From Bacteroidales bacterium (lineage in GTDB: Bacteria > Bacteroidota > Bacteroidia > Bacteroidales > P3), in NCBI GenBank assembly GCA_017443265.1, contig JAFSOU010000122.1, positions 1 through 64,000 of the forward strand: DNA of 64,000 nt. Reading direction: 5' to 3'. Position 1 is the first letter of the stretch, and every line of letters begins with the position of its first letter. A program made the translations under genes and the position numbers. A model generated the notes under the pieces. It ran no database searches and was not told the DNA's origin. It saw only the letters and a program-made list of their open reading frames with translations. Shown here one piece after another: positions 50,734 through 60,853 of this stretch.

Positions 50734-50850
50734 TTGGGTAAAAATGTGCATTTTTGCAGAAAGAAATGTTGAGTAAAATAGCAGAGGAATGTGTTCACTT
50801 CATAAAAGAGCATAAAATAATTTTATAATGATCTAACACTCCTCAAAACA

Positions 50851-50935
50851 GCCCCGAAGGGGCGACAGATTACAGCCGGTGGTGTGAACCGCCGGTCAGG
50901 AAATATCACCCACAACCATAGAGCCCCGAAGGGGC
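50851..50935. repeat. REP-like palindrome cluster
   Basis: GCCCCGAAGGGGC occurs at 50851-50863 and 50923-50935. Between them a GCCGGTGG/CCGCCGGT hairpin lies at about 50875-50896. This arrangement resembles REP-type intergenic repeats of Bacteroidetes, which can be mobilised by REP-associated transposases; none is encoded in the window. Confidence 0.65.
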
Positions 50936-51183
50936 AACAAAAAAAAATCAGGCTGTCTGGCCAAAAGTCGGCAGCATGTTTTATTATTTGGTTTCAAAAT
51001 TTTGTACAGATAAACGAGAAAAAATCGTTTTTCTGTAAAATTTTATTTGCAAATTCCTAGTCCGCAACAACAAGGGAAAAAAGAATAATCAAAACCATTG
51101 TTGTATTCCTTTAAAAATCAATCATTTCCATCTTTTTCTGAACGCCAATCGCAAATCATTCGCAATTTTACAAAAAAAAATCG

Positions 51184-51229: not shown

Positions 51230-51487
51230 ATGGAAGAACTGATATTAGAGCTTAAGAAACAGATAATTGAGGTGCTCAACCTCGAAGACATGAAACCTGA
51301 GGACATCGACGAAAACGCTCCTCTTTTTGGCGAAGGTCTGGGTCTCGACTCCATCGACGCGCTGGAACTCATAGTGCTGATGGAGAAGAACTACGGCATC
51401 AAGCTGAACTCCGCCGCCGAAGGCAAGGACGTATTCAAATCGGTACGCGTGATGGCCGAATACATCCAGGCTCACCGTACAAAATAA
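51230..51487 (+). CDS. Acyl carrier protein of the polyene-type pathway
   Basis: The 85-residue protein carries the growing acyl chain on a phosphopantetheine arm. The attachment serine is S41 in GLGLDSIDALELIVL. The D-S-I-D form and the ending VMAEYIQAHR match carrier proteins of aryl-polyene/flexirubin clusters better than the primary AcpP (usually D-S-L-D). It is the first gene of the operon, and its neighbour encodes a ketosynthase. Confidence 0.9.
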   Translation: MEELILELKKQIIEVLNLEDMKPEDIDENAPLFGEGLGLDSIDALELIVLMEKNYGIKLNSAAEGKDVFKSVRVMAEYIQAHRTK

Positions 51488-51500
51488 GCCTTTTCTTTTG

Positions 51501-53744
51501 ATGGGAGACGCGATTGTAGTAACGGGGATGGGCATCGTTACGGGCATCGGTGTGGGCGTTGAGTCCACGCTCGATTCTCTTATGCACTGTCGTTCGGGCG
51601 TGGGTGCCGTCAGGTCCCTTAGCACCGCGCATACCGACATTCCCGTGTGCGAAGTGCCGATGACCGAAGGCGAGATGCGCCAACGGCTCGGCATCCCTGC
51701 CGACGTGGTAACCACCCGCACTCCCTTGCTCTCCCTTATTGCCATGCGCGAAGCCTTGCAGCAGTCGCTCCTACAACCCGATGGCGGCCGTGTAGCGTTG
51801 ATAAACGGCACCACCGTTGGCGGCATGGAGAAAAGCGAACAGCTGTACCTCGCTTTCTTCGACGACAAAGATGTGGCCTACATCTCGGCCCACGACTGCG
51901 GTGCAGGGACTGCTTTCGCTGCCGATTTCTTCGGCCGTTTCTCGCAGACCACCACCATCTCCACCGCCTGTTCTTCGGCCTCCAACGCCATCATCCTCGG
52001 CGCCAACCTCATCAAGAGCGGCAGGGCCGACAAAGCCGTGGTGGGCGGCACCGAGTGCCTGAGCAAGTTCCACCTCAACGGTTTCAACACACTGATGATT
52101 TTGGACCGCGAGCGCTGCCGTCCGTTCGACGATGGCCGCAACGGCCTTAACCTCGGCGAAGGTGCTGCTTTCCTTGTGATAGAACGCGAGAGCGATGCCA
52201 AGGCCCGTGGGGCGAAGATTCTCTGCACCCTCGAAGGCTATGCCAACAGCTGCGACGCTTTCCACCAGACGGCTACCTCGCCGGAAGGGGAGGGGGCTTA
52301 TTTGGCTATGACACAGGCTCTTGCCGACAGCGGACTGCAGCCTTCCGACATCGACTACATCAATGCACACGGCACGGGCACGCAAAACAACGACTCCAGC
52401 GAGGGCAACGCCATACTGCGGGTGTTCGGCAACAACTACCCGCCGATTTCCTCCACCAAAGCCTTTACAGGCCACTGCACAAGCGCCGCAGGCAGCGTGG
52501 AGGCGGTGATTTCCATACTTGCCATGCAACACGGCTTTATCCCTCCGAGCCTCGGTTTCGAGACGCCTATGGCCGACGTGCCTGTGGTGCCGCAAAAGAC
52601 CTTGAAAACTGGCGTTTCGCTAACCCATGTTATGACAAACTCTTTCGGTTTCGGAGGCAACGACTCATCGCTGATTTTTGGGAAATACCAACCAGAAAAA
52701 CAGATACTTGCAACCAGTGCTTACGACGAAAAACGCAGGGTGTTTATTGGCGCGGCTTCGCAAATAAGTGTGCAACATCCTCTTGGCGAGGAATGGTTTG
52801 AAAATCCGATCTTTTACAACGAAAAATATGTCAGGGCTCTGTCGCCTGACTATAAGCAATTTATCGACCCAAAGGCCGCACGTCGCATGGGCGCTGTGCT
52901 GAAACGTGCCCTCACCACTGCATTGTCGGCTTTGAAGGATAGAGATGTTGCTGATTTGCAGGCGGTTATTACTGGCACGGGCTTGGGCTGTATCGAAAAT
53001 ACCGAGAAATTTCTCCGCGCTATGGTTGTGGACGGCGAACAGCTGCTCACTCCGACCTATTTCATGCAGTCCACGCACAACACCATAAGCTCGCAGGTGG
53101 CGCTCAACCTGCACTGCCATGGCTACAACTGCACCTACTCGCAACGCGGGGTGTCGTTCGAAAGTGCCCTGCAGGACGCTTTTCTGCAGTTCAAACTTGG
53201 AAAACTCAGCAACGCGCTTGTCGGCGGGCACGACGAGATGACGCCCGACTACTACGACCTTCTGGACAAGGTACATTTTTGGGACGGCACCTTTGCCGGC
53301 GAAACAGCCGCCTGGCTCTATCTGGAAAACGGTCGCAAATCCGACACTTGGTGCGAACTGCTTGACACTCAACTGTTTTTCCGCCCAAGCGAAGGTGATT
53401 TGCATAATGCCATCGACGCAATGCTGCTGAGGCACGGACTGCAACGTTCCGACATCGCCGCTGTGATGACGGGCAAGGACGAAAATGCCGAAAACAACCG
53501 TCCGTACGACGATTTCTGCCGTCTGTTGCCGCAGGCTGCTGTGCTACGTTACAAACATCTTTTCGGCGAAGGTTTCACCATGCCGGCCATGGGAATCTAC
53601 GCTGCGGCCGTGTGCCTGAAAAATGGCAGGATTCCTTCATTTTTGATTGAAAACAAGGGCCAAGTAATTGACAATCCGCAAAATATACTAATTGTAAATT
53701 GTTTTAAAAACGCTGAATATTCATTAACATTGCTCTCTAAATGA
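51501..53744 (+). CDS. Fused beta-ketoacyl synthase and chain-length factor
   Basis: The 747-residue protein contains two thiolase-fold domains in one chain. Residues 1-395 are an active ketosynthase with C157 in STACSSA, H290 in NAHGTGT and H325 in KAFTGHC. After a short linker (about 396-412) residues 413-747 form a second, degenerate ketosynthase: GTGLGCIENTEKFL, then NCTYSQRGVSFESAL where the catalytic Cys position is Gly550, and GGHDEMTPDYYDLLDKVHFW. That is the chain-length-factor type, normally a separate protein in aryl-polyene clusters. A TTG at 51498 was rejected in favour of the ATG at 51501. It elongates ACP-bound chains with malonyl-ACP, and the degenerate half would set chain length. 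Confidence 0.9.
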   Translation: MGDAIVVTGMGIVTGIGVGVESTLDSLMHCRSGVGAVRSLSTAHTDIPVCEVPMTEGEMRQRLGIPADVVTTRTPLLSLIAMREALQQSLLQPDGGRVALINGTTVGGMEKSEQLYLAFFDDKDVAYISAHDCGAGTAFAADFFGRFSQTTTISTACSSASNAIILGANLIKSGRADKAVVGGTECLSKFHLNGFNTLMILDRERCRPFDDGRNGLNLGEGAAFLVIERESDAKARGAKILCTLEGYANSCDAFHQTATSPEGEGAYLAMTQALADSGLQPSDIDYINAHGTGTQNNDSSEGNAILRVFGNNYPPISSTKAFTGHCTSAAGSVEAVISILAMQHGFIPPSLGFETPMADVPVVPQKTLKTGVSLTHVMTNSFGFGGNDSSLIFGKYQPEKQILATSAYDEKRRVFIGAASQISVQHPLGEEWFENPIFYNEKYVRALSPDYKQFIDPKAARRMGAVLKRALTTALSALKDRDVADLQAVITGTGLGCIENTEKFLRAMVVDGEQLLTPTYFMQSTHNTISSQVALNLHCHGYNCTYSQRGVSFESALQDAFLQFKLGKLSNALVGGHDEMTPDYYDLLDKVHFWDGTFAGETAAWLYLENGRKSDTWCELLDTQLFFRPSEGDLHNAIDAMLLRHGLQRSDIAAVMTGKDENAENNRPYDDFCRLLPQAAVLRYKHLFGEGFTMPAMGIYAAAVCLKNGRIPSFLIENKGQVIDNPQNILIVNCFKNAEYSLTLLSK

Positions 53745-54091
53745 TACGATTGATATTGTTGAGTCTTCTACAGTCGCTGTTGCTTGCGCTAGGACAGGTC
53801 TTTATGAAATTTGCCACCGAGTGGGAGGGCCGATTTGAGTGGTCGTGGCGCATTTTCACCAATTGGTGGCTTTTGGCCGCAGGCGGTGCTATGGCGGCAG
53901 CTACAATCCTTTGGATGTATCTGTTGAAAAATCATGACCTTTCGGTAGTGCATCCGCTATCGGGAGCCAGTTTTATTTTTAGTATGGTTTTGGCGTGGAT
54001 TTTCTTTGGCGAGAATATTCCGCTAATACGCATTTTGGGCGTGGCTCTTATCATTGGAGGTATGTATTTTATTACAAGAAGTGCGTTATGA
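53741..54091 (+). CDS. Small multidrug-resistance/EamA-like membrane protein
   Basis: The 116-residue protein has four predicted membrane helices, starting LILLSLLQSLLLALGQVFMK and including WLLAAGGAMAAATILWMYLL, HPLSGASFIFSMVLAWIFFG and ILGVALIIGGMYFI. This is the half-size DMT/SMR layout, which works as a dimer. Its ATG overlaps the stop of the ketosynthase gene and its stop overlaps the next ATG, so all three are translated together. It may export or flip a pathway intermediate. Confidence 0.85.
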   Translation: MIRLILLSLLQSLLLALGQVFMKFATEWEGRFEWSWRIFTNWWLLAAGGAMAAATILWMYLLKNHDLSVVHPLSGASFIFSMVLAWIFFGENIPLIRILGVALIIGGMYFITRSAL

Positions 54092-54729
54092 AAAAAGTTT
54101 TGAGTTGTTTTTTGCCGTTTCTCCCGCTGCTTTTGGCTGTGTCGTTTGCTGTGGCTCAGCCTTCGGGATTCACCCGTCTTTCCGATGCCGAAAAAACGGC
54201 TTTGCTTTCGGCGATGAACGACAATTTCCAGTCGATGCAATGCGATTTCCGTCAGGAGAAAAAATCGGCACTTTTTGACGAAGTGTCTGTCAGTGAAGGT
54301 GTTATGTATTTTAAAAAACCGTCGTCGCTGCGATGGGAATACACCAAACCCACTGTGTCGGTGGTAGTTATGAATGGCACCAAAGTAAAAGTTACCGATG
54401 CCGACGGCAAGGAACAGGGCAAGGGCGGACGTATGTACCGTCAGATGGCCGCACTGATTACCGGCGTGGTGAGCGGCAGGGAGCTCGACGACGGCAAGAA
54501 TTTCAAGAGCGAGTTCTATGTCGGCGCCAATGCCTATTGGATTAAGCTGACACCCGCCAACCGCCGTCTGAAAGCCTTTTTCAACCATCTGGAACTGACT
54601 TTGGACAAGCAAAAGATGGTGGCTGTGAAAATGTTTATGAACGAAAAGGAGGGCGACAGCACCACCATCACTTTCAGCAACCACAAAGTGAACGCCGCCA
54701 TCGATGATAAAGTGTTTAACCTCAAATAA
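54088..54729 (+). CDS. LolA-like outer-membrane lipoprotein carrier homologue
   Basis: The 213-residue product begins MKKVLSCFLPFLPLLLAVSF with cleavage near AVAQ. The LolA pattern follows: MNDNFQSMQCDFRQEKKSAL, VMYFKKPSSLRWEYTKP and VVMNGTKVKVTDADG. It ends in FSNHKVNAAIDDKVFNL, as in LolA-like proteins. LolA homologues are regular members of aryl-polyene clusters and probably carry the lipid-linked product across the periplasm. An upstream in-frame start inside the transporter gene was rejected. Confidence 0.87.
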   Translation: MKKVLSCFLPFLPLLLAVSFAVAQPSGFTRLSDAEKTALLSAMNDNFQSMQCDFRQEKKSALFDEVSVSEGVMYFKKPSSLRWEYTKPTVSVVVMNGTKVKVTDADGKEQGKGGRMYRQMAALITGVVSGRELDDGKNFKSEFYVGANAYWIKLTPANRRLKAFFNHLELTLDKQKMVAVKMFMNEKEGDSTTITFSNHKVNAAIDDKVFNLK

Positions 54730-54734
54730 TTGCT

Positions 54735-55106
54735 ATGATAGACGGGAGTTTTTACACTATTGTCGGCACCTACGATACAGACCCGCTGCACATACGTCGC
54801 GAGATAGTGTTCCGTATGGACCACGTCATTTTTAAGGCGCATTTCCCCGACAAACCCATTGCTCCGGGCGTTTGCACTTTAGAGATTATCCGTCAGCTGG
54901 TTACCGAGGTCGTAGGCAGCGAAATCCGCATCCCGACGGTGAAAAATATGAAATTCCTGAACCTTATGACTCCGGCCGAAGGCAAGGTGTTTGCCTTTGA
55001 TATACAGTTGGTTGCACAAACCGAAACGCTGTATTCCGCCAAGGCAACAATTTCCGACCCCGAATCGACAGTCGTTAAAGCAAGCCTGCTTTGCGAGAAA
55101 CATTGA
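54735..55106 (+). CDS. FabZ/ApeI-like 3-hydroxyacyl-ACP dehydratase
   Basis: The 123-residue hotdog-fold protein has AHFPDKPIAPGVCTLEIIRQ near residue 36, the counterpart of the FabZ HFPG-x-P-x-x-P-G-V active-site stretch with its catalytic His. KNMKFLNLMTPAEG then corresponds to the F-x-x-P-x-x-P/G strand. It would remove water from 3-hydroxyacyl-ACP to create the conjugated double bonds. It is 5 bases downstream of the LolA-like gene. Confidence 0.88.
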   Translation: MIDGSFYTIVGTYDTDPLHIRREIVFRMDHVIFKAHFPDKPIAPGVCTLEIIRQLVTEVVGSEIRIPTVKNMKFLNLMTPAEGKVFAFDIQLVAQTETLYSAKATISDPESTVVKASLLCEKH

Positions 55107-55129
55107 GATATTCACCAAATGCCCCGACG

Positions 55130-55867
55130 ATGAGAGCCTGCGCCATTATACCTACTTACAATAATCTGGCAACCCTTCCGTCGGTTATAGGTGATGTGGC
55201 GGCGATAATCCCCGACATAATCGTGGTAAACGACGGCTCCACCGACGGCACTTCCGAATACCTTGCTACGGTGTCCGACAATGTTACCGTGGTTTCCTAT
55301 CCTAAAAACCGTGGCAAAGGCTATGCCCTGCGCCATGGCTTTAAAGCCGCTCTGCAAAAGGGTTTCGACACTGCCGTAACCCTCGACTCCGACGGCCAGC
55401 ACCTCGCTTCGGACATACCCACGATGCTCGACTGCTACGCCGCCGATGAAGGGAGTCTTGTTGTGGGCAGCCGCAAGTTCGACAACCCCAATATGCCGTC
55501 GAAAAACAGCTTTGCCAACCGTTTCTCCAATTTCTGGTTCACGGTGCAGACCGCCCGTCGTCTGCCCGACACACAGACGGGTTTCCGTGTGTATCCGCTG
55601 AAAAAGATCGGTCGTCACAATCCGCTAAACAACCGCTACGAGGCTGAACTTGAAATACTTGTGCGTTGTGCTTGGCGCGATGTGGATATAAAATCCTGTC
55701 CCATAAACGTTTACTACCCACCGCAGGAGGAACGTGTGAGTCATTTCCGGCCCACCATGGATTTTGTGCGTATCAGTCTGCTAAACACTGTGTTATGCCT
55801 GCTTGCCGTGGTTTACGGCTATCCGTCGATGGGAATACGAAAACTGATTAAATTGCTGAAGAAGTGA
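55130..55867 (+). CDS. Family 2 glycosyltransferase, DPM1-like
   Basis: The 245-residue product begins MRACAIIPTYNNLATLPSVI and has IIVVNDGSTDGTSEYL, TLDSDGQH with the D-x-D motif and DTQTGFRVYPL, all of the dolichol-phosphate-mannose synthase-like group. A C-terminal segment (ISLLNTVLCLLAVVYGYPSM) may touch the membrane. Such GT2 enzymes are standard in flexirubin/aryl-polyene operons, where they may attach a sugar to the acceptor lipid. The ATG at 55130 is used: the earlier TTG lies in the dehydratase gene. Confidence 0.88.
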   Translation: MRACAIIPTYNNLATLPSVIGDVAAIIPDIIVVNDGSTDGTSEYLATVSDNVTVVSYPKNRGKGYALRHGFKAALQKGFDTAVTLDSDGQHLASDIPTMLDCYAADEGSLVVGSRKFDNPNMPSKNSFANRFSNFWFTVQTARRLPDTQTGFRVYPLKKIGRHNPLNNRYEAELEILVRCAWRDVDIKSCPINVYYPPQEERVSHFRPTMDFVRISLLNTVLCLLAVVYGYPSMGIRKLIKLLKK

Positions 55868-58800
55868 GAAATATACTGCTCCGCCTATATGCCTTTTTCG
55901 ACAAACGTCATCCCTTGATGGTCGTTGCGCTGACGGTATTGCTCGCTTTGATGGCCTTGTGTCTGCTGCGGCTGGATTTTGTAGAGGACATCAGCCGTTT
56001 TCTACCGCAGGAGGGACACGACAACCGCCAAAACTATGCCTATCAGAACATCGGGGCTGCAAACAAGATAATGATAAACGTGTATGCCACGCAGGGCGAG
56101 CCCGACCAAGAAGTGCTGATGGAAGCCGTGGACCGTTTGGCCGAGCGTTTCGAAAGTGCCGATGTGGCGGAACATACCACCGATGTTTTCTATCAGGTGG
56201 ACGAGGAGAAAGTGTTCGAGCTGACGGGTTTCGTTCAGGCCAACATGCCGTACTACCTCGACAGCGCCGACTATGCCCGTATCGACAGCCTTCTCGCTCC
56301 GCAGAAGATAGCACAGGCACTTGCCGCCGACAAGCAGGTGCTTCTCTCGCCCGCCGGCGGTGTGGCCAAAAAGATAATCGTGAACGACCCGCTGGGGTTC
56401 GTATCGCCTAAACTTCAGCAACTTGGAGGGGGCAACCCCATGGGCGACCGCTACGAAATCGTCGACGGGTATGTGTTCAACAAGGAGGGCAACGAGGCGA
56501 TAATGGCCGTTACCTCCAAATATCCGGTTAGCGAGACTTCGGGCAACAAAAAGCTTGTGCAACAGATAGATAAGATTGCCCATGAGGTGGAGAACGAGTT
56601 CGGCGGCACGGTGAAAGTGGATTATATAGGCGCCGCTGTGATTTCGGTGGAAAACGCCGACCGCATCAAAACCGACAGCATAATCTCCACCATCCTTGCG
56701 CTGGTGCTCATCCTTGCCCTGCTGATGTATTTCTTCCGCGATGCCAGAGCGTTGATAATCATAGTGTTTTCGCTGATTTTCGGTGGGCTTTTCGGATTGG
56801 CGTTCCTCGCCCTGTTCAAAGGCACCGTGTCGGTGATAGCGATAGGGGTGGGGTCCATAATTGTCGGAATAGCAGTGAATTACCCACTGCATTTCCTCGC
56901 CCATTACCAGCAGGGATACAGCAAGGAGCAGACTATCAAGGACATAATAGAGCCGCTTGTTACGGGCAACCTAACCACCGTTGGAGCATTCCTGAGCCTC
57001 GTGTTCATCAGCTCCGACGCCATGAAAGACCTCGGACTCTTCGCCGCCTTGCTTTTGGTGGGAACGATATTGTTTGTCCTTGTCTTTTTGCCACATCTGT
57101 TCCGAAAAACTCTGTTCCATAGGCAGGACCGCTCCTCTACAAGGCTCGTCTTCGGCAAGGTGGCCGACCGCCGTTTCGAACAAAATAAATTCATCGTCCT
57201 TGCCATAGTGCTGATTACCATACCGTTGTATTATTTCAGCCGGCAGACGGCTTTCGAGTCGGACATGAGCAAAATCAACTACATGACTCCAGACCAACGC
57301 ACAAAGCTCGACAAGCTGATAGCCCAGACCGAGAGCGGTGTGCCGTCGGTTTACTGTGTGGCCGAGGGCAAGGATATGGAGGAAGCCCTGCGCGGCTACG
57401 AGGCGGCGATGCCCGTCATCGACAGTATGGCCGCCGACAGCACCGTGGTCAAAGTGTCGGGAATTGGCGGCTTTGTGCCTTCGCAGCAAATGCAGAAACA
57501 GCGTGTGGAGCAATGGGAGGCTTTCTGGTGCACCCGTCGCGACGAACTTGTGCGCAACGTCGAGGCCGAGGCCGCGAAACTCGGCTACAGCAAAGGAGCA
57601 TTGCAACCTTTCTTCGACATCATCGGCAAAAGCCACGGAACTCACGAATATACCTATTTTGAACCGATAATCAATTCGTTTGCAAGTAATTACCTATGCA
57701 GCAACCCCGACCACTGCATGGTTTACACCCTGATGGAGAGCAACCACCGCGAGGCTGTGGCGCAACGGCTTGGCAATGTGGACGATGGCGTATTCACCAT
57801 GGACAACACTAGCATAGTGAACAAAATGGTTGACGCACTTTCCGACGATTTCGACTATGTGCTTTATATCTGCGGTTTCATCGTGTTTTTATTCCTCACC
57901 ATCTCGTTCGGGCGGCTGGAGCTCAGCCTGTTGTCGTTCCTCCCGCTGGCGGTGGGCTGGATTTGGATTTTGGGCATTATGAACATCTTCGACATACGGT
58001 TTAACATCATCAACATCATTCTTGCCACCTTCATTTTCGGTCAGGGCGACGACTACACCATTTTCGTCACCGAAGGGATGATGTACGAATACACCTACCG
58101 TCGCAAGATGCTGGCGTCGTACAAAAACTCGGTGCTGCTGTCGGCCACCATTATGTTTATCGGCATCGGCTCGCTGATTATTGCCAAACACCCTGCCATG
58201 CACTCGCTGGCCGAAGTAACGATAATCGGTATGTTCTGCGTGGTGCTGATGGCCTACATTTTCCCGCCGCTCATCTACCGCTGGCTCACCAAAAAACGCG
58301 GCCACGACCGCCTGATGCCTATTACCTTGCTCAACCTTCTGAAAACTATCTACGCTTTTACGGTTTTCTTCGTTTTCTCGATATTCCTCTCTATTTTGGG
58401 ATTTTTTGTGCTTACCATCGGAGGCAAAACGCCAAAGCATAAGTTGTTTTACCACAAATGTTTATGTGGGCTTCTGCGCACCTGCGTGCGTTGGATGCCG
58501 GGAGTGGAGGCGCATGTGCACAACACCTCCGGCGAGACTTTCGAAAAGCCCGCCATCATCACCTGCAACCACCAGTCGCACCTCGACCTGCTTTATACGC
58601 TTGCCCTCAACCCCAAAATCATCTGTCTGACAAACAAATGGGTGTGGAACAGCCCGTTCTACGGCTGGATAATACGTTACGCCGATTTCTATCCCGTGGC
58701 CAATGGTCTTGAGGAGAACGAGAAACAGGTTGAAAAGGCTTTGCGCAACGGCTACTCGGTGCTTATCTTCCCCGAAGGCACCCGTTCCGAGACTTGCGAC

Positions 58801-59364
58801 ATACTGCGTTTCCACAAAGGTGCATTCCATCTGGCCAAAAAACTTGGCGTGGACGTGCTGCCGCTTGTTACCCACGGCATCGGACATGTTTTCCCGAAAC
58901 AGGAGTTTATGCTGCGCAAAGGGCGAGTGGATGTGCAGATTATGCCACGTGTTACCAACGAAAATCCGCTTATGGAAGGCGACGCCAACACAGTTGCCAA
59001 AGCCATGCGGCAATACTATGTGGAGCAATACGGGCAGCTGTGCCGCGATACCGAGACCGCCGACTACTACGCCGACCTTGTGCTGCACAACTATATTTAT
59101 AAAGGAAGCGACATAGAACGTCGTGCCCGTAAAAACCTGAAACATAACGGCAACTACCGCGAAGCCATCGCCGCACTGCCCGACAACGGTGAATTCCGTA
59201 TCGACAACTGCGGACAGGGCGAGTTTGCACTGCTTGCCGCCTTGGTGAAGAAAGACCTGCAAATCACGGCCACCGACAGCGACGCCGATTTGGTGGACAT
59301 CGCCGCCAACTGTGTCAGCGTGCCGCAAAACTTGAAATACGAACATCCCAATGCCGATGAATAA
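55864..59364 (+). CDS. MMPL/RND-type exporter fused to an acyltransferase and a C-terminal Rossmann-like segment
   Basis: The 1166-residue protein starts at a GTG overlapping the previous stop. Residues 1-860 are an RND/MMPL transporter with two sets of membrane helices, including GSIIVGIAVNYPLHFLAHY and, near residue 728, GQGDDYTIFVTEGMMYEYTY. Residues about 880-1050 are a PlsC-type acyltransferase with NHQSHLD at 902-908 and FPEGTRSE at 969-976. The last 100 residues include LHNYIYKGSDIERRARKNL and GQGEFALLAALVKKDL, resembling a truncated methyltransferase-like fold. The protein probably exports the polyene and esterifies it to a lipid, as suggested for homologues in flexirubin clusters. 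Confidence 0.87.
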   Translation: MRNILLRLYAFFDKRHPLMVVALTVLLALMALCLLRLDFVEDISRFLPQEGHDNRQNYAYQNIGAANKIMINVYATQGEPDQEVLMEAVDRLAERFESADVAEHTTDVFYQVDEEKVFELTGFVQANMPYYLDSADYARIDSLLAPQKIAQALAADKQVLLSPAGGVAKKIIVNDPLGFVSPKLQQLGGGNPMGDRYEIVDGYVFNKEGNEAIMAVTSKYPVSETSGNKKLVQQIDKIAHEVENEFGGTVKVDYIGAAVISVENADRIKTDSIISTILALVLILALLMYFFRDARALIIIVFSLIFGGLFGLAFLALFKGTVSVIAIGVGSIIVGIAVNYPLHFLAHYQQGYSKEQTIKDIIEPLVTGNLTTVGAFLSLVFISSDAMKDLGLFAALLLVGTILFVLVFLPHLFRKTLFHRQDRSSTRLVFGKVADRRFEQNKFIVLAIVLITIPLYYFSRQTAFESDMSKINYMTPDQRTKLDKLIAQTESGVPSVYCVAEGKDMEEALRGYEAAMPVIDSMAADSTVVKVSGIGGFVPSQQMQKQRVEQWEAFWCTRRDELVRNVEAEAAKLGYSKGALQPFFDIIGKSHGTHEYTYFEPIINSFASNYLCSNPDHCMVYTLMESNHREAVAQRLGNVDDGVFTMDNTSIVNKMVDALSDDFDYVLYICGFIVFLFLTISFGRLELSLLSFLPLAVGWIWILGIMNIFDIRFNIINIILATFIFGQGDDYTIFVTEGMMYEYTYRRKMLASYKNSVLLSATIMFIGIGSLIIAKHPAMHSLAEVTIIGMFCVVLMAYIFPPLIYRWLTKKRGHDRLMPITLLNLLKTIYAFTVFFVFSIFLSILGFFVLTIGGKTPKHKLFYHKCLCGLLRTCVRWMPGVEAHVHNTSGETFEKPAIITCNHQSHLDLLYTLALNPKIICLTNKWVWNSPFYGWIIRYADFYPVANGLEENEKQVEKALRNGYSVLIFPEGTRSETCDILRFHKGAFHLAKKLGVDVLPLVTHGIGHVFPKQEFMLRKGRVDVQIMPRVTNENPLMEGDANTVAKAMRQYYVEQYGQLCRDTETADYYADLVLHNYIYKGSDIERRARKNLKHNGNYREAIAALPDNGEFRIDNCGQGEFALLAALVKKDLQITATDSDADLVDIAANCVSVPQNLKYEHPNADE

Positions 59365-60853
59365 GAACAAAATAGTGATAGTGGGCAGCGGCCTCGGAGG
59401 GCTGGTGTGCGGTTACGTACTTTCCAAGAACGGATACGATGTAACCATCCTCGAAAAAAACGCCCAGATAGGAGGGTGCCTGCAGACTTTCCGCCGCGGC
59501 GGCGTGAAATTCGACACAGGTATGCATTACATAGGCAGTATGCTCGAAAACCAGATACTGCACCGTTTTTGGAACTACCTCGGTCTGCTCGACACTGTCC
59601 CCCTGCAGCAGCTCGACACCGGCGGCTACGACGTCATCTCCCTTGCAGGCGAGACCTTCAAATTCGCCAATGGATACGAGCGTTTCGCCGACACCCTATC
59701 TCAGCAGTTCCCCGACAACCGTTCCGACATAGAGACCTACCTCTCGCGTGTGCGCGAAATTGCCGACGCTTCGCCGCTCTACAACCTCCGCAAGATAAAC
59801 AACAACATCTTTATCGAAGCCGACTACATCAAAACCAGCATCAACGAATTTATAGCCTCATCGACATCCAACCCCAAGTTGCAGAACGTGCTGGCGGGCA
59901 ACCTGCCGCTGTATGCCGGCGTCAAGGACAAAACTCCTACATACGTCCATGCCCTGATTCATAACTTCTACATACAGAGTGCGTTCCGTATTATTGGCGG
60001 CAGCGACACCATAGCCCATTCGTTGGCCAAGTCCATCGAGAAATTCGGTGGCAAGGTGCGCACCAACGCCGAAGTGGAGAAACTTATCTGCGACGATACC
60101 CACGCCACTTCCGTGCTCCTGACCTCGGGCGAGGTGGTGGTGGCCGATTATTTCGTTTCCAACGTCCATCCGCAGGCGTTCCTCGGCAAAATCGATTCGC
60201 ACATAATACGCAAGGCCTATCGCGAACGCATCTCCAAACTGGAAAACACCATCTCCAATTTCACCGTATATATCAAATTCAAGGAAAACGCCACACCGTA
60301 CCTCAACTACAACTATTATTTCTACGAATTACCCGATGTCTGGAAATCAAACGATTACGACATCGGCAAATGGCCGCAAAGCTACCTCTTTATGCACCAG
60401 TGCCACCAGAAAAATCCCGTCTATGCCCAAAGTGCCGAGCTTATCGGCTACATGCACTACGACGAGGTGCGGCGTTGGGAAGGCACCCGTGTGGGACACC
60501 GCGGACAGGAGTATCTTGATTTCAAGGAGCAAAAAGCCGATAAACTTCTTGAAAGCCTCGAACAGTCGTTCCCCGGCATCCGCAGTTGCATAGAGTCGTA
60601 CTACACATCGACGCCGCTCACCTACAGCGACTACACTGCCACCCACGAAGGCTCGATGTACGGCATAATACGCGACAAAAACTTCCCCAGCCAGACCTAC
60701 GTTTCGCAACGCACCAAAATTCCCAACCTTTTTATGACTGGACAGAATATCAATTCGCACGGCATTCTCGGCGTAACCATCGGAGGAATAATAACTTGTG
60801 CCGAATTTCTTGGCATCAATAAAATTATCCAGGAGATTTATGACAATATCTAG
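59351..60853 (+). CDS. CrtI/phytoene-desaturase-like FAD oxidoreductase
   Basis: The 500-residue product has the N-terminal dinucleotide fold IVIVGSGLGGLVCGYVLS and EKNAQIGGCLQTFRRGGVKF, as in carotenoid desaturases and related isomerases. The C-terminus has the FAD-contact motif LFMTGQNINSHGILGVTIGG. Homologues accompany flexirubin/aryl-polyene gene sets and may oxidise or isomerise the polyene chain. The ATG at 59351 overlaps the exporter gene by 14 bases; a second ATG at 59357 is possible. It is the last gene of the operon, and no clear terminator follows. Confidence 0.87.
   Translation: MPMNKNKIVIVGSGLGGLVCGYVLSKNGYDVTILEKNAQIGGCLQTFRRGGVKFDTGMHYIGSMLENQILHRFWNYLGLLDTVPLQQLDTGGYDVISLAGETFKFANGYERFADTLSQQFPDNRSDIETYLSRVREIADASPLYNLRKINNNIFIEADYIKTSINEFIASSTSNPKLQNVLAGNLPLYAGVKDKTPTYVHALIHNFYIQSAFRIIGGSDTIAHSLAKSIEKFGGKVRTNAEVEKLICDDTHATSVLLTSGEVVVADYFVSNVHPQAFLGKIDSHIIRKAYRERISKLENTISNFTVYIKFKENATPYLNYNYYFYELPDVWKSNDYDIGKWPQSYLFMHQCHQKNPVYAQSAELIGYMHYDEVRRWEGTRVGHRGQEYLDFKEQKADKLLESLEQSFPGIRSCIESYYTSTPLTYSDYTATHEGSMYGIIRDKNFPSQTYVSQRTKIPNLFMTGQNINSHGILGVTIGGIITCAEFLGINKIIQEIYDNI

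Follow-up and report, generated by a model that had tools for sequence, protein, structure and literature searches.

Ketosynthase (KS) and chain-length factor (CLF) of type II systems form obligate heterodimers, and partners from different systems cannot as a rule be exchanged (PMC12664062). In aryl-polyene clusters, which make orange polyene pigments, this pair is ApeO-ApeC (PMC8358021), known from solved complexes of Xenorhabdus doucetiae (6QSP) and Acinetobacter baumannii (7F28), in which an active KS is combined with a nucleophile-free CLF that best retains its first thiolase lobe. The flexirubin cluster flxA-Y of Chitinophaga pinensis also has separate KS and CLF genes, overlapping at TAATG. 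The actinorhodin-type KS-CLF (1TQY), an obligate heterodimer of separate chains (PMC12664062), follows the same general KS-CLF logic and makes a poly-beta-ketone, not a polyene. A covalent KS-CLF didomain, with a CLF without catalytic residues, has been described in the PUFA synthase PfaC, with a crystal structure from Moritella marina (PMC9702510, PMC12895367). In a literature search that covered few subscription papers, this didomain was the only natural KS-CLF fusion found, and there was no report of one in dissociated type II systems.

The window analysed here, a stretch of 64,000 nucleotides from a Bacteroidales bacterium (contig JAFSOU010000122.1), carries at 51501-53744 (+) one open frame of 747 aa, running from an ATG at 51501 to a TGA at 53742-53744, and no internal stop or frameshift was found across it. 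In the KS half, the Pfam domains ketoacyl-synt (residues 4-233) and Ketoacyl-synt_C (242-353) were both recognized far over the cut-off, and in the CLF half Ketoacyl-synt_2 (PF13723) matched residues 451-590, weakly yet over its cut-off. The Cys-His-His triad C157, H290 and H325 and the lysine K320 are kept in all 123 KS homologues. Column 550 of the CLF is Gly in 63 of 88 homologues and Cys is absent from the residues listed there, although the residue opposite C157 moves one or two positions with the alignment. Comparison by hhalign of the 88 CLF halves with the KS set gave a probability of 99.7, with the nucleophile Cys lost in the CLF. Thus, the original prediction that an active KS and a degenerate one, with Gly550 at the Cys position, share one unbroken frame was confirmed by the ORF, the Pfam matches and the conservation.

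The best-conserved region of the CLF is its N-terminal thiolase lobe (Y542, N543, T545, Y546, S552, F553 and D559), and these residues form the strand and elbow around the former nucleophile. In KS folds the strand and elbow segment at the nucleophile sits at the dimer interface, and the conservation of this segment in the CLF would be consistent with packing against the KS. The AF2 model of the 747-aa chain, built on an alignment of 41 fused homologues, had a mean pLDDT of 92.1 and a pTM of 0.95, with pLDDT of 76-96 in the linker blocks. A pTM of this size across two lobes indicates that the relative placement of the KS and CLF halves is predicted with confidence, and from it we infer that the halves may pack as an intrachain KS-CLF pseudo-twofold dimer.

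The KS half matches ApeO and the CLF profile matches ApeC (7f28_A, E 8.9e-8; 6qsp_B, E 3.6e-5), which belong to the same kind of pathway. These data support the view that the single chain combines the KS and the CLF of an aryl-polyene/flexirubin-type pathway. The usual description of type II aryl-polyene and flexirubin systems as having separate KS and CLF polypeptides does not hold here, since the single frame is kept across the genus; the protein is ApeO-ApeC-like in its working, but a fused variant, one chain instead of two proteins. As in PfaC, the KS is followed by the CLF in one polypeptide. However, PfaC is a large multidomain synthase subunit, whereas this is a stand-alone two-domain protein in a dissociated type II system: no further PUFA synthase domains were found in the ORF, which ends after the CLF, and its neighbours are aryl-polyene genes (Table 1).

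Table 1. Features of the KS-CLF frame and of the two pathway loci
Feature	Position	Strand	Basis and remarks
Acyl carrier protein, PRK09184 type, directly upstream of KS-CLF	51230..51487	+	NCBIfam NF006617, 92.1 bits (cut-off 70)
KS half, residues 1-397	51501..52691	+	Pfam PF00109/PF02801; C157, H290, K320, H325 catalytic
Interdomain linker YQPEKQILATSAYDEK, residues ~396-411, about 16 aa	52686..52733	+	Linker table, 51 fused homologues
CLF half, residues ~412-747	52734..53741	+	PF13723; Gly550 at nucleophile position
EamA-type small membrane protein	53741..54091	+	PF00892; next gene also in relatives
LolA2-type flexirubin-cluster lipoprotein carrier	54076..54729	+	NCBIfam NF053544, 159 bits (cut-off 125)
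FabA/FabZ-like dehydratase	54735..55106	+	PF07977
GT2 glycosyltransferase	55130..55867	+	PF00535
MMPL exporter fused to phospholipid acyltransferase domain	55864..59364	+	PF03176, PF01553
CrtI-like FAD oxidoreductase, last gene of the locus	59351..60853	+	PF01593, PF13450; place conserved in relatives
FlxA tyrosine ammonia-lyase	contig C3		825 bits (cut-off 700)
FlxB reductase	contig C3		401 bits (cut-off 340)
FlxJ methyltransferase	contig C3		602 bits (cut-off 560)
KS_R	L115:14608-15804		Contig C3, same genome
orf3	L115:15946-16593		Contig C3; no Pfam match

The genome contains ACP, KR, DH, TE, tyrosine ammonia-lyase, methyltransferase and exporter genes of the pathway, distributed between the window (51230-60853) and contig C3 (6081-16593), which also carries a FabB-like KS, an LpxL-like acyltransferase, a dehydratase, a thioesterase, KS_R and the unannotated orf3. 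In relatives the order TAL-KR-KS-acyltransferase-MT-DH-TE-KS_R-orf3-ACP-KS-CLF-EamA-LolA-DH-GT2-MMPL/AT-CrtI is conserved. Since they carry one operon in this same order, the pathway is here split over two loci. The window locus is flanked by ligA/hemW-like genes on one side and a dapB-like gene on the other, named from their translations. The pigment operon is contiguous in most relatives, and the congeneric genome G182 (L160) shares the window-side arrangement beside hemW and ligA. Two copies of a AGCCCCGAAGGGGC-type palindromic repeat lie in intergenic DNA upstream of the gene for the ACP (window 50850-50940).

The FlxA, FlxB, FlxJ and LolA2 models match here over their curated cut-offs, and the order around ACP-KS-CLF-LolA-DH-GT2-MMPL/AT-CrtI is the same as in the C. 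pinensis flexirubin cluster (MAG L074), so that, judging from gene order, the fused ORF is the probable counterpart of Chitinophaga FlxN/FlxO (PMC3992019). Two features set the window genome apart from C. pinensis: its pathway is divided between two loci, and a search of the whole genome found no KAS III of the DarB type, which would serve the dialkylresorcinol half. We take DarB to be a member of Pfam family PF08541; the sole match to this family, on contig C38, adjoins a KS gene and is therefore probably FabH. A complete flexirubin pathway was also considered and is unsupported, with no KAS III beyond this one probable FabH. Given this negative result, the pathway probably yields an aryl polyene and lacks the resorcinol part of complete flexirubin.

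The same uninterrupted ORF is present in the assemblies of two congeneric species, G183 and G182, with 95% and 91% identity, which are the other genomes of the genus carrying the gene. In the family, with KS counted at E<=1e-90, 29 of the 42 KS-bearing genomes have the fused form, 12 have split genes and one is unresolved; the fused ones belong to genera g1 (3), g4 (25 of the 26 with the gene) and g9 (1). In an order-wide sample that included the window genome, fusion was seen in at least 10 of the 108 genomes with a KS. Outside the order no fused KS-CLF was found in the phylum sample (0/31; 0/33 others, two of them from the same order), the criterion being a KS open frame of ~400 aa or a stop separating the halves. 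In most Bacteroidota homologues KS and CLF are split, and the two genes usually abut or overlap, in frame or out of frame. The expectation that KS and CLF are normally two adjacent genes thus stands in Bacteroidota, but not for the E. coli aryl-polyene system, where the gene of ApeC, the CLF, is not adjacent to that of its KS (PMC8253772). These surveys rule out the fused ORF as a unique oddity, and the implication of an exceptional architecture is not supported: fusion recurs in the family (25 of its 29 cases coming from one genus) and in the order, and the PfaC didomain was already known. The fused form is nearly the rule within the family, but not in the order or the phylum.

On a KS tree of 126 rows, from which the distant matches L091-L114 were excluded except three kept as outgroup, the window genus is nested among split relatives. 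There were 10 changes between fused and split, at least 8 of them on well-supported branches, but the tree on which these counts depend was a quick one, many of its branches being weak, and some of the changes may be fissions. In some fused lineages the CLF is reduced to its first lobe, as in ApeC, and it is apparently shrinking stepwise toward an ApeC-like half size. The second lobe was unrecognizable in part of genus g4 (L017-L030) and absent in several other lineages (L133, L137, L173-L175). Oscillospiraceae/Clostridia (L087-L089 and L090:9980-12178, from Ruminococcus bromii strain 5AMG) encode a double-KS protein of ~730-770 aa, whose second half has no Cys in L087 and L090; in L090 the gene is followed by an apparent SDR reductase and a FabZ-like dehydratase. 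Firmicutes thus also have a fused protein resembling KS-CLF, though a distant one.

The most informative result is the pattern of which genes fuse. The contig C3 protein orf3 matched the CLF profile with a probability of 97.9 (E 4e-13) and the KS profile with only 0.7, and the Cys, both His and the Lys of KS_R are kept in 74 of 74 sequences. From these profiles and residues, orf3 is probably a half-size CLF-like partner of KS_R, and a second pair of KS-CLF type therefore seems to belong to the pathway. Many relatives have KS_R and orf3 in one fused gene (e.g. L163:7606-9390:-), with 39 of 103 rows fused and 11 changes, at least 7 of them forced; the AF2 model of one such fusion, from the relative G090, reached a mean pLDDT of 94.0 and a pTM of 0.95, with only 66-72 in the linker. 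Among adjacent pairs, KS-CLF was fused in 53 of 131 cases and KS_R-orf3 in 42 of 109, against 0/130 for ACP-KS, 0/83 for CLF-EamA, 0/77 for TE-KS_R, 7/71 for DH-GT2 and 0-2 for others. Because the fused protein served as query for gathering the loci, the raw KS-CLF count is inflated and, to a lesser extent, that of KS_R-orf3; genus g4 is also heavily represented among the loci. EamA, LolA and MMPL are membrane or exported proteins, for which fusion would be excluded for other reasons; the cytosolic controls are ACP-KS, orf3-ACP, TE-KS_R and c3DH-TE. Counted as events, fusion occurred 10 times in KS-CLF and 12 times in KS_R-orf3, against 5 in DH-GT2 and 0-2 in the other tested pairs, a contrast smaller than the raw counts suggest. 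Fusion in the operon is not exclusive to the KS pairs, since rarer neighbourhoods are also often fused (GT2-AT 10/12 and CrtI-CrtI 5/10, too few for event counting) and the MMPL/AT fusion, shared by 50 of 50 relatives, is an ancestral trait of this operon.

We consider it highly probable that the ORF encodes, in one chain, the elongating KS-CLF of a type II PKS of the aryl-polyene (flexirubin-type) class, fused through loss of the KS stop. The N-terminal half would most likely carry out decarboxylative condensations through C157/H290/H325, supported by K320, on malonyl units supplied by the ACP encoded just upstream, and the nucleophile-free C-terminal half would pack against the KS in a pseudo-twofold arrangement and shape the chain pocket. 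The second locus would supply the KR, dehydratase, thioesterase and tyrosine-derived starter, and the linker may act as a passive tether. Most likely, the KS stop was lost by indel or substitution where the two genes abutted or overlapped, and this loss could be tolerated or favoured because KS and CLF are obligate 1:1 partners.

Regarding the cause of fusion, it is a real possibility, albeit short of probable, that neutral compaction of the operon is responsible, the stop between such genes being lost by chance and the fusion meaning only that it is tolerated. One or a few mutations suffice for this, split relatives abutting or overlapping both in and out of frame, and DH-GT2 also fuses occasionally. 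The linkers of the 51 fused homologues, with an HMM-defined gap of 0-41 aa, are hypervariable and unconserved: lineages differ in both the length and the sequence, and no motif is shared. However, stop-to-start gaps are similar for most adjacent pairs, and same-spacing neighbours (ACP-KS, TE-KS_R, c3DH-TE) were fused 0-1 times out of 61-130. Moreover, the fused form was kept throughout nearly all of g4, and purifying selection in the window genus is strong on the KS (dN/dS 0.04-0.08), clear on the CLF (0.14-0.18) and on the whole more relaxed at the junction (0.12-0.38, on 19 codons only). It is possible that the KS pairs differ from other neighbours in tolerance only, not in benefit.

It is less likely, and on balance improbable, that fusion arose because it enforces correct pairing and prevents cross-pairing of the two paralogous KS-CLF pairs. 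The same pathway does encode KS_R, with its invariant Cys-His-His, and a half-size CLF-like partner, fusion being most frequent in these two pairs; however, both remain split in many lineages and the two fusions are unassociated once phylogeny is considered. A correlation between them was rejected: it is suggested by the raw counts (43 FF, 62 ss, 26 Fs and 15 sF, duplicated loci included) and not by independent pairs. Additional translation of the CLF half from an internal start, giving free CLF beside the fused form, seems very unlikely. An in-frame GTG or TTG occurs in 34 of the 51 fused junctions, and the window has a GTG at Val413, close to where the CLF begins, but an in-frame ATG occurs in only 9, and a start at Val413 would lose the first residues of split CLFs. 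An assembly or consensus error deleting a real stop has a negligible chance of explaining the single chain in this draft genome of 134 contigs, given that the two congeneric species share the frame at the identities above and that fusions with other linkers occur in unrelated assemblies.

The fusion is thus real, recurrent and not unique, a new arrangement of known parts and not a new kind of enzyme. Made several times with different linkers, these natural fusions offer single-chain enzymes in finished form, with linker lengths already tried out in nature. The pattern of fusion is also a Rosetta-stone signal, which predicts the unannotated half-size CLF orf3 as the obligate partner of KS_R. 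As for gut Bacteroidales, we suggest only tentatively, as a rather doubtful idea, that KS-CLF tethering may have been repeatedly selected in them, two paralogous pairs of one pigment pathway fusing independently many times and a correct 1:1 pairing being thereby guaranteed.
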